DNA of 64,000 bases. Origin: Tardiphaga robiniae. GTDB taxonomy: Bacteria; Pseudomonadota; Alphaproteobacteria; Rhizobiales; Xanthobacteraceae. The stretch lies in NCBI RefSeq assembly GCF_001618955.1, contig NZ_LVYV01000023.1, forward strand, positions 372,001 through 436,000, written 5' to 3'. Below are positions 1,966 through 54,155 of the stretch, in pieces. The first letter of the stretch is position 1. Every line of letters starts with the position of its first letter. The position numbers were made by a program, and so were the translations under genes. The notes beneath the pieces are model-generated. The model was not told where the DNA came from. It was given only the letters and a program-made list of their open reading frames with translations, and made no database searches.

Positions 1966-2086
1966 TTGAGTTCCTTCCCTTGCTTGCAAGGCGAGATTTT
2001 CTTGTTCTGCAGGTTCTTTTGCTCCTGCGAGATAGTCATACCGCGATTGCACAATGGCTCAAATGGAAAGCGACCAAAACGCAATA

Positions 2087-3387: not shown

Positions 3388-3484
3388 TTCTGATCTCCCT
3401 GATCAATTGTGATGTGTCACGTTTCTTGACGTGGAGCTCTGCGGCTCCTGAGAACATTCAACACCCACCTGCATGTCGCAGCAA

Positions 3485-4799: not shown

Positions 4800-4887
4800 G
4801 GATCTCCGTGATCGTTTCTTCCCAAGTTTTTTCGAAGTTCTGCGACTCCTGCCGGTATTGAATACCTCTGGAGTGCGAGCCACAAGA

Positions 4888-6190: not shown

Positions 6191-6278
6191 TTCAGAACTC
6201 CCTGATTTTTATTCGTCTTGTTTTGCGGGCCTTTGCGGCTCCGGCCGGATTGAACACCGTTCACGTGTATGCGGCAAC

Positions 6279-52881: not shown

Positions 52882-53073
52882 ATGGCGATCGACGACGACG
52901 ACAAACCGAAAAAGAAGGTCAGCCACGAGATCGGGCAGGACCTCTCGCTGCTATCGGTCGAAGAACTCGCCGACCGGATCGCTTTGCTGAATGGCGAGAT
53001 CACCCGGCTGCAATCGAGCATGACTTTGAAGCGCGCGACGCGCGATGCGGCGGATCGTTTTTTCAAGTCGTGA
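52882..53073 (+). CDS. DUF1192 small protein
   Basis: 63 residues: MAIDDDDKPKKKVSHEIGQDLSLLSVEELADRIALLNGEITRLQSSMTLKRATRDAADRFFKS. The acidic/basic start, LSVEELxxRIALLxxEIxRL helix and FFKS end match DUF1192, a short coiled-coil family of Rhizobiales with unknown role. The ATG follows GGGGGAGG; the frame extends upstream to 52831 without support. Divergent from the quinone oxidoreductase gene, an arrangement seen in relatives. Confidence 0.88.
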   Translation: MAIDDDDKPKKKVSHEIGQDLSLLSVEELADRIALLNGEITRLQSSMTLKRATRDAADRFFKS

Positions 53074-53107
53074 CGGGCTATTGAACGGCGCTTTCCTGCC
53101 TCTCTGC

Positions 53108-53223
53108 CGTCATTGCGAGGTCAAGGAAAGCTGCCTGCAGCTTTCCTCTTAGCGAAGCAACGTGGCAACCCAGAAGCCATACGCGAAGAAAAACTGGACT
53201 GCTTCGCTCCGCTCGCAACGACG
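53108..53223. repeat. Short palindromic intergenic repeat (CGTCATTGCGAG type)
   Basis: About 116 bases with near-perfect inverted ends (CGTCATTGCGAG at the left, CTCGCAACGACG at the right) and an inner hairpin AGGAAAGCTGC / GCAGCTTTCCT. The GCGAAGCAA...TTGCTTCGC-like interior is typical of repeats scattered in Bradyrhizobium-type genomes. Confidence 0.75.
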
Positions 53224-53374
53224 GACGAGAGGCCTGTGCAATACCGCCGACGCTTCCTCAGTCACGATCCCGACATTGTCTCATTCCGATACAGCTTGCG
53301 AGGCGTCGCATGGCAAACGGATCGTGAAGAAAGCCCGCGCATTTACGCGCAATTAAGCTTTCTCGCATATTACT

Positions 53375-53473
53375 TAAATTGTCCTTGTTTGGACACCGAG
53401 TGGCTCCTGTCCACTCTGTTTGACGCCTCCCTGTTATCAACTTTAAAGCCGCCGGAAACGGCGGCTCTTTTTT
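53375..53473 (+). ncRNA. Candidate small RNA with three hairpins and a strong terminator
   Basis: In an otherwise gene-free 570-base gap, three hairpins follow each other: GTCC-TTGTTT-GGAC (53381-53394), GAGTGG-CTCCTGT-CCACTC (53398-53416) and a terminator with an 8-bp stem AGCCGCCG, GAAA tetraloop, CGGCGGCT and CTTTTTT (53447-53473). The unpaired stretch between the second and third contains CCTCCCTG. CU-rich, anti-Shine-Dalgarno loops plus a terminator are typical of trans-acting rhizobial sRNAs. The 5' end and strand of transcription are inferred; no promoter is obvious. It could alternatively be an isolated terminator of upstream transcription. Confidence 0.5.
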
Positions 53474-53642
53474 GGTATGTATGTCTCCATTCGGGGTGTC
53501 CGCGATCATTCAATCGCGTTGGAAACCATAAATACTTCTTTAATTTTACGCCGCTGGACTCTCACGCACGCACGCGTAATGATTTGTTCATCATAAGCCC
53601 GCCGTTCAGAGCTGGCTGCGAAACCTGCGTGAGGCGTTAACT

Positions 53643-54155
53643 ATGTCGGATCGTTTGCACAGCGAACCCGCTCTCGTTCAGTTCAGCGAGCGGCTGACCA
53701 ATTCCGCTGCCTTCGGCGCCTTGTTTCGCGAGGGGATGGATCTGGTCGAAGAGACCGCGGCCTATCTCGATGGCGTCGGCCGTAGCGAGGCCAAGGCACT
53801 GGATCGCTCCGTCAGCCTGACTTACGCCACCGAAAGCATGCGCCTCACCACCCGCCTCATGCAGCTTGCCTCATGGCTGCTGCTGCACCGTGCGGTGAAG
53901 GAAGGCGAGATGACGCTGACCCAGGCCAATCGTGAAAAGACCAAGGTCAAGCTCAGCGCCGCCGATCCGAGTCCGGAAGAAATGCTGCTCAAGCTGCCCG
54001 AGCAGCTGCAGATACTGATTGCGCGTTCGATGGTGCTGCAGACCAAGGTTCGTCGCCTCGACGTCTCGATCCACGCCGCGACCACCACGCATGCCCCGAT
54101 CGGCAATCCGCTGGTGCCGCAGCTCAATCGCCTGAAGGCCGCGTTCGAACGCTGA
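53643..54155 (+). CDS. DUF1465 protein
   Basis: 170 residues, mostly helical. VQFSERLTNSAAFGALFREGMDLVEETAAYLDGVGRSEAKALDRSVSLTYATESMRLTTRLMQLASWLLLHRAVKEGEMT matches DUF1465, a family restricted largely to alphaproteobacteria. No signal peptide or membrane segment. It has been considered a cytoplasmic regulator, but I know no firm function. The 5' gap holds AT-rich promoter-like sequence (53530-53570). Confidence 0.86.
   Translation: MSDRLHSEPALVQFSERLTNSAAFGALFREGMDLVEETAAYLDGVGRSEAKALDRSVSLTYATESMRLTTRLMQLASWLLLHRAVKEGEMTLTQANREKTKVKLSAADPSPEEMLLKLPEQLQILIARSMVLQTKVRRLDVSIHAATTTHAPIGNPLVPQLNRLKAAFER

Follow-up and report, generated by a model that had tools for sequence, protein, structure and literature searches.

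The element at 53.4 kb of the window (the whole 64,000-nucleotide stretch of Tardiphaga robiniae DNA that was analysed) is an sRNA of the catalogued family BjrC1505, preceded by a CtrA-type promoter box and followed on the same strand by rcdA, the gene for an adaptor of CtrA proteolysis (Table 1). We propose that CtrA activates this sRNA and that the sRNA represses rcdA, which would prolong the life of CtrA; taken as a whole, this model seems to us to fall a little short of an even chance. The wider reading, in which BjrC1505 is a conserved alphaproteobacterial sRNA, activated by CtrA and repressing RcdA, an RNA brake on CtrA proteolysis that is kept and lost together with rcdA, is put forward more tentatively. 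The RNA family was already known; the CtrA box and the partnership with rcdA appear to be new here, and repression of rcdA is a testable proposal. A CtrA box and a partnership with rcdA would make BjrC1505 part of the alphaproteobacterial circuit that sets the timing of replication and division; in the literature on that circuit we met few RNA regulators: CcnA, EcpR1 and GspR (related cell-cycle RNAs are treated in excerpts of PMC8959179 for CcnA and PMC4414408 for EcpR1). The model names a concrete target site and a concrete promoter site and predicts a shorter CtrA half-life upon deletion of the sRNA.

Table 1. Features of the sRNA-rcdA region and of the binding-protein array, with positions in the window.
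Feature	Position	Strand	Basis
DUF1192 gene, upstream conserved neighbour	52882..53073	+	Pfam PF06698; synteny
CtrA-type box TTTA-N7-TTAA	53342..53356	+	homologue conservation; 7 spacer positions not conserved
-10-like TATTAC	53368..53373	+	position-specific TATNAC/CATTAC conservation in 111 box-aligned homologues
sRNA BjrC1505, predicted transcript of ~95 nt	53380..53473	+	RF02356 match; 5' end predicted from conserved -10 box at 53368-53373
Hairpin 1 (TGTCC/GGACA)	53380..53395	+	covaries, with 88.9% of cells paired and double changes in 2 of 5 pairs
Hairpin 2, loop CTCCTGT (the loop of the sequence-only reading)	53398..53416	+	stem invariant in 44 of 44 rows
Conserved linker TTTGACGCCTCCCTGTT, proposed seed	53419..53435	+	little changed in family and named homologues and in most of the distant ones
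Intrinsic terminator	53447..53473	+	terminator scan; covariation, 99.0% of cells paired
GAGGCGTTAA, rcdA RBS, proposed target site	53631..53640	+	would pair with 53420-53429, 10 bp including one G-U
rcdA (DUF1465), CtrA-proteolysis adaptor	53643..54155	+	NF051867, 192.4 bits (cut-off 170); PDB 3ctw, E 1.8e-32; PF07323
Array member 1: -10 box and 5' hairpin with CAGGAGC	1999..2044	-	
Array member 2: -10 box and 5' hairpin with CAGGAGCC	3423..3465	-	
Array member 3: -10 box and 5' hairpin with CAGGAGTC	4825..4866	-	
Array member 4: -10 box and 5' hairpin with GGAGCC	6217..6258	-	

The sequence-only reading had placed a candidate sRNA at this locus, and the Rfam search bore it out. Positions 53335-53474 matched RF02356 (BjrC1505) with 138.5 bits against a gathering threshold of 50 and over all model positions 1-140, a full-length match in which no sequence difference sets the element apart from the family; a target and a control are proposed only here. 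Neither alpha-r14 nor alpha-r15 (AbcR), the two families suggested for a covariance search, was matched at the Rfam gathering thresholds, which RF02356 alone passed. When the element was scanned below threshold (E up to 1), only Phe_leader and suhB/mmgR (19 bits, threshold 41) were added and an AbcR-type match was absent. Both the element DNA and the RF02356 model had a single place in the genome. BjrC1505 is reportedly a find of Madhugiri and co-workers from 2012 in the Bradyrhizobium/Rhodopseudomonas lineage. The RNA is listed in a table of predicted RNAs in an excerpt of PMC6337395, and excerpts of PMC7143759 and PMC4842269 mention BjrC RNAs of B. japonicum. In the literature searched we found neither a function for BjrC1505 nor the identifier RF02356, and none of the papers found there that join CtrA or rcdA with sRNAs was on BjrC1505.

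Matches to RF02356 were present in 130 of 149 genomes sampled from the same bacterial family (129 above threshold) and, at E <= 0.001, in 25 of 240 genomes across the class Alphaproteobacteria (12 above threshold); 20 of the 26 class-level places other than the window's own were fetched. RF02356 gave no match in 14 control genomes; the controls named elsewhere in the analysis include Caulobacter vibrioides. Among the matches listed, an exact 33-base core occurred in the Hyphomicrobiales Bradyrhizobium, Tardiphaga, Afipia, Roseibium, Stappia, Bosea and Chelatococcus, and 80 of the at least 119 pattern stretches with this core make up the named loci referred to below. The named locus closest to the window, again among the matches listed, belongs to a Tardiphaga MAG with 80-86% DNA identity.

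The RNA together with its terminator (53375-53473) folded better than 200 of 200 shuffles (z -5.2). In a structure alignment of 44 rows (43 of 44 diversity-selected loci and the window), 96.6% of the cells of hairpin 1 and the terminator were paired, a share that fell to 58.4% or less on sliding. The two elements covaried, with 33 double-changed cells against 9.7 in shuffles and 0 of 500 shuffles as high. The loop of hairpin 2 had been said to expose GGCTCCTG. These letters are present at 53402-53409, but their two G belong to the stem GAGTGG/CCACTC, which leaves only CTCCTGT in the loop. Furthermore, the letters of hairpin 2 differ in many of 20 loci from other families of the class and the linker GACGCCTCCCTGTT stays, with few changes, in the same 20 loci, which makes the linker the better seed candidate. 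Its CCTCCC was mostly unpaired in the ensemble. With up to two mismatches allowed, the long complement AACAGGGAGGCGTC had 46 sites genome-wide, a number that includes the RNA gene, and its reversed pattern had 32.

Upstream of the RNA, the box TTWA-N7-TTAA was found in 144 of 145 testable homologues, 126 of them exact and 18 with one mismatch; the count covers 150 loci from three sets, from which five too close to contig ends were left out. It was exact in 45 of 49 family, 71 of 76 named and 10 of 20 other-family loci, had one mismatch in 4, 5 and 9 loci of these sets, respectively, and was worse in one locus, compared with a random background of 1.2% and 1.1% of 9000 random 57-nt windows from the same loci. 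In the 111 homologues aligned on the box the half-sites are invariant, as fixed by the construction of the alignment, and the spacer is low in information; the bases flanking the half-sites are nearly fixed and the -10 stands at a fixed distance. TTAA-N7-TTAA is given as the CtrA motif in excerpts of PMC12403871 and PMC3616915, and most CtrA-activated promoters of Caulobacter have one site at -35 according to an excerpt of PMC11264516. The window has such a motif near -35 at 53342-53356, with TTTA as its first half, and the genome encodes a CtrA that is 96% identical to the typed query. As the predicted -35 region lies partly within the box, the sRNA is most likely switched on by phosphorylated CtrA; both the binding and its sign, activation and not repression, are inferred. 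Box and -10 lie within the first 45 positions of the RF02356 model (53335-53379), where several model pairs are broken in the window, and since they do, model positions 1-45 are probably promoter DNA and not RNA.

RcdA delivers CtrA to ClpXP proteolysis, and its gene begins ~170 nt past the sRNA terminator on the same strand. NCBIfam names the RcdA equivalog family (NF051867) a protease adaptor, and an excerpt of PMC10469942 describes CtrA as controlled by rcdA. The arrangement is conserved: rcdA lies downstream on the same strand in 49 of 50 family, 75 of 80 named and 8 of 20 other-family loci, and DUF1192 upstream on the same strand in 47 of 50, 66 of 80 and 5 of 20. Across the class, PF07323 was present in 22 of 25 sRNA-bearing against 68 of 215 other genomes (Fisher 5.5e-8, which is optimistic because the genomes are related and the counts not independent). 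All 20 sampled sRNA-bearing genomes of the family encode a strong RcdA (PF07323, 150-201 bits); among 19 sRNA-less family genomes, 14 lack PF07323 and 5 have a diverged copy (75-84 bits). At the five loci with diverged rcdA, a match to RF02356 was absent at E 0.01 and the end of a DUF1192-like frame was still seen upstream by eye, so the sRNA appears to have been lost or to have decayed while its neighbours stayed. The sRNA-less family genomes with absent or diverged RcdA fall in genera g2, g7, g41, g14 and g19; in g14 and g19 the DUF1192-like frame and rcdA are still adjacent and the sRNA is gone.

We propose the following route from CtrA to rcdA. Through the box at the predicted -35 region, CtrA would turn on the BjrC1505 sRNA. 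The ~95-nt RNA would stop at its own terminator and display the class-wide conserved linker UUUGACGCCUCCCUGUU, and this linker would pair with the rcdA ribosome-binding site and lower translation (in this family within the Hyphomicrobiales and in its near relatives). Less RcdA would then mean slower destruction of CtrA. Because proteolysis of CtrA relies on RcdA as the delivering adaptor, CtrA would in this way slow its own destruction.

The complementarity on which this route rests lies between linker bases 53420-53429 (UUGACGCCUC) and GAGGCGUUAA at 53631-53640, directly before the rcdA start. It was ranked against 352 genes predicted by a simple gene caller in 464 kb (20 x 20 kb and the window) of the 6.36-Mb genome, and four target ideas were tried (array, ctrA, gcrA and rcdA). 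With the linker set against ribosome-binding regions, rcdA ranked 2 of 352 by duplex energy and 14 of 352 with accessibility; it ranked 2 of 352 after removal of general Shine-Dalgarno strength, and a plain anti-Shine-Dalgarno sequence placed it only 186th. The median percentile of rcdA for linker pairing was 3.7% across 49 family loci and 4.5% across 75 named ones, a performance equalled by 1 of 100 shuffled linkers. The rcdA start was located in 132 of the 150 loci, and G[AG]GG?CGT stood within the last 25 nt before it in 78 of these 132, against 5 of 352 background genes. None of 8 rcdA loci from other families fell in the best quarter for linker pairing, so that the pairing does not explain the class-wide conservation of the linker. 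When the whole leader (-150 to +60) was taken, rcdA dropped to rank 47 with accessibility and to rank 112 by duplex energy, again of 352. TTAACCATG at the rcdA start may be a CtrA half-site and conserved as such rather than for pairing. Lastly, any effect on rcdA could be one in cis, through leader attenuation.

The same linker could serve a less specific purpose. BjrC1505 would then be a CtrA-controlled sRNA like AbcR, MmgR or the Sor RNAs, with its accessible CCUCCCUG as a general anti-Shine-Dalgarno seed that represses the mRNAs of many periplasmic solute-binding proteins and with rcdA as at most one of its targets; this we consider rather doubtful. The 40 genes with the best linker pairing at the ribosome-binding site include 11 solute-binding proteins, against 1 of 40 random genes from the other 312 (Fisher 0.003; 39 of the top 40 were classified, three of them, rcdA and array members 2 and 4, from earlier annotation). 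However, binding-protein genes have strong Shine-Dalgarno sequences, and the top 40 of the plain 16S anti-Shine-Dalgarno sequence itself holds at least 8 labelled binding-protein genes. It enriches binding proteins similarly, and the enrichment is therefore not specific to the BjrC1505 RNA. A rank test on the labels gave p near 1e-6, but this value is biased, the label seeds having come for the most part from the top of the ranking. When the array was the sole source of seeds, no more than 4 non-array genes were labelled and p was 0.046. We therefore rely on the count of 11 against 1 in 40. Also, 4 of 24 shuffled linkers with an anti-Shine-Dalgarno 5-mer ranked Peripla_BP_6 as well. On the array itself, members 2 and 4 (ranked 35 and 30 of 352) have CAGGGAG at their real ribosome-binding sites, a match to CUCCCUG of the linker such as an anti-Shine-Dalgarno motif would find at many binding-protein genes, but members 1, 3 and 5 rank 132, 231 and 232. 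What is left of the AbcR-like action that had been proposed for the array is thus a weaker, non-specific form through the linker at the true ribosome-binding sites of members 2 and 4, and not one through the loop.

BjrC1505 resembles several known RNAs. AbcR1 and AbcR2 (alpha-r15) likewise have three stem-loops and CU-rich anti-Shine-Dalgarno motifs (excerpt of PMC7143759), but BjrC1505 has no Rfam match to that family, is single copy and has a CtrA-type promoter. Like alpha-R8 (MmgR; SisA-D of Caulobacter; RF00519), it has a CCUCCCU seed followed by a terminator, but its score against RF00519 is the 19 bits mentioned above, below the threshold of 41, and the genome has a separate RF00519 (alpha-r8/MmgR) gene at G000:C1:170126-170203 (71.2 bits). 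Four distant members of RF02356 (L243, L246, L254 and L258) matched SorX (RF02784) and SorY (RF02651) of Rhodobacter, in favour of the general anti-Shine-Dalgarno reading, and this suggests a linker-plus-terminator module common to these RNAs and the distant members. These matches were below the gathering scores, however, and the RNA of the window gave no such match at E up to 1.

It seems unlikely that the RNA is instead a terminated leader of rcdA, with the CtrA box driving rcdA through a leaky terminator and the linker acting in cis or being a by-product. The common strand, the ~170 nt from terminator to rcdA, the synteny and the co-occurrence are all in line with such a leader, as is a CtrA motif upstream of rcdA in S. 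meliloti; that CtrA survey (excerpt of PMC3616915) searched only upstream of protein-coding genes and lists rcdA as one of those bearing the motif. However, the terminator is near-perfect and conserved, with pairing in 99.0% of cells, and the interval between it and rcdA has conserved elements of its own, as a separate promoter would (TGGACTC in 63 of 132 loci, TTGTTCATCAT in 55 of 132). By our reading of the coordinates, moreover, 13 of the 25 class genomes with a match have no rcdA in the 600 nt downstream. An sRNA that would act on the rcdA ribosome-binding site is the preferred reading.

The mechanism of the sequence-only reading, in which the CTCCTG loop of hairpin 2 represses an array of five Peripla_BP_6 binding-protein genes on the minus strand via CAGGAGCC in their leaders, is very improbable. 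The leader matches it had cited do exist: CAGGAGCC in member 2 (3443-3450, minus strand), CAGGAGC in member 1 (2021-2027), CAGGAGTC in member 3 (4844-4851) and GGAGCC in member 4 (6237-6242). By duplex energy of hairpin 2 alone, with structure ignored, the five leaders ranked 1, 3, 13, 24 and 209 of 352, a rank sum reached by 6 of 300 shuffled hairpins. At face value these ranks are better than chance, but the leaders are paralogous and the ranks count as one or two observations, not five. With accessibility the leaders ranked 38, 59, 60, 171 and 303 of 352, and 0 of 32 array leaders from the window and its relatives reached -6 kcal/mol; the expectation that the five leaders would rank above random mRNAs thus failed once structure was counted. 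The matched site is not at the ribosome-binding site, but 52-63 nt upstream of the start codons used. The pattern CAGGAGYCGC was not enriched in the genome (40 sites against 62 for the reversed control pattern).

What the leaders share is better seen when the 32 leaders of four members, from the window and nine genomes of the genus, are compared. TTG stood 16-18 nt upstream of a -10-like hexamer in 32 of 32, and wherever CAGGAG was present it formed part of the 5' arm of a hairpin, one that begins at most a few bases from where the transcript is predicted to start. The motif was kept in 8 of 9 member-2 and 6 of 7 member-3 leaders, as the loop model would have it, but only in 1 of 7 member-1 and 0 of 9 member-4 leaders. 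In the 25 leaders of members 2-4, 78.3% of the hairpin cells were paired (at most 55.8% when slid), with 8 double changes against 4.2 in shuffles and 11 of 500 shuffles as high; the 7 leaders of member 1 had a double change in 1 of 6 hairpin pairs. Member 3 of the window loses its hairpin in a longer mRNA context, and for the window's members 2, 3 and 4, respectively, 44, 96 and 36 of 200 shuffles folded equally well. A hairpin at the 5' end predicted for the mRNA, partly kept by compensatory changes, thus accounts for the CAGGAG motif that the leaders share, and it is possible that this hairpin protects or stabilises the mRNA. Pairing between hairpin 2 and the array was rejected as the leading mechanism since both partners are buried in stems. 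This corrects the AbcR-like reading: where paralogous leaders share a motif, it can belong to a conserved 5' hairpin instead of an sRNA site. In one genome (G000), binding-protein member 2 had 47 matches, so that binding proteins of the branched-chain-amino-acid type are very greatly expanded there.

Action on ctrA or gcrA mRNA, in the manner of CcnA of Caulobacter crescentus (in the excerpt of PMC8959179 a 182-nt RNA from the replication origin with a CtrA-type promoter, whose CCCC loop acts on ctrA and gcrA), is the least probable of the readings and was rejected for lack of signal: a 10-bp match to UGUUUGACGC in gcrA codons was the best site in 8 of 10 genomes, but ctrA leaders ranked 39 to 325 and gcrA leaders 12 to 124 of 352 (10 genomes each), with ranks of 325 for ctrA and 47 for gcrA in the genome of the window, and BjrC1505, at a predicted ~95 nt and beside rcdA, differs from CcnA and has no notable pairing with either.

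Two further observations concern the intergenic DNA around the sRNA. By its look we took 53100-53225, between DUF1192 and the sRNA, to be a REP element of Bradyrhizobium. An inverted-repeat test of 53060-53260 found no inverted repeat, and a 17-base piece of the stretch occurred once in the window and elsewhere only in two copies of the same place among the fetched loci; since the piece is not repeated at other fetched loci, the repetition of this stretch is not supported. Between the sRNA and rcdA, GANTC was found in 86 of 132 regions against 60.3 expected, with a cluster 80-100 nt before the rcdA start, an excess that does no more than suggest a CcrM site. In the window GACTC is found at 53557-53561 in the rcdA promoter region, which is presumably a CcrM-type GANTC site.
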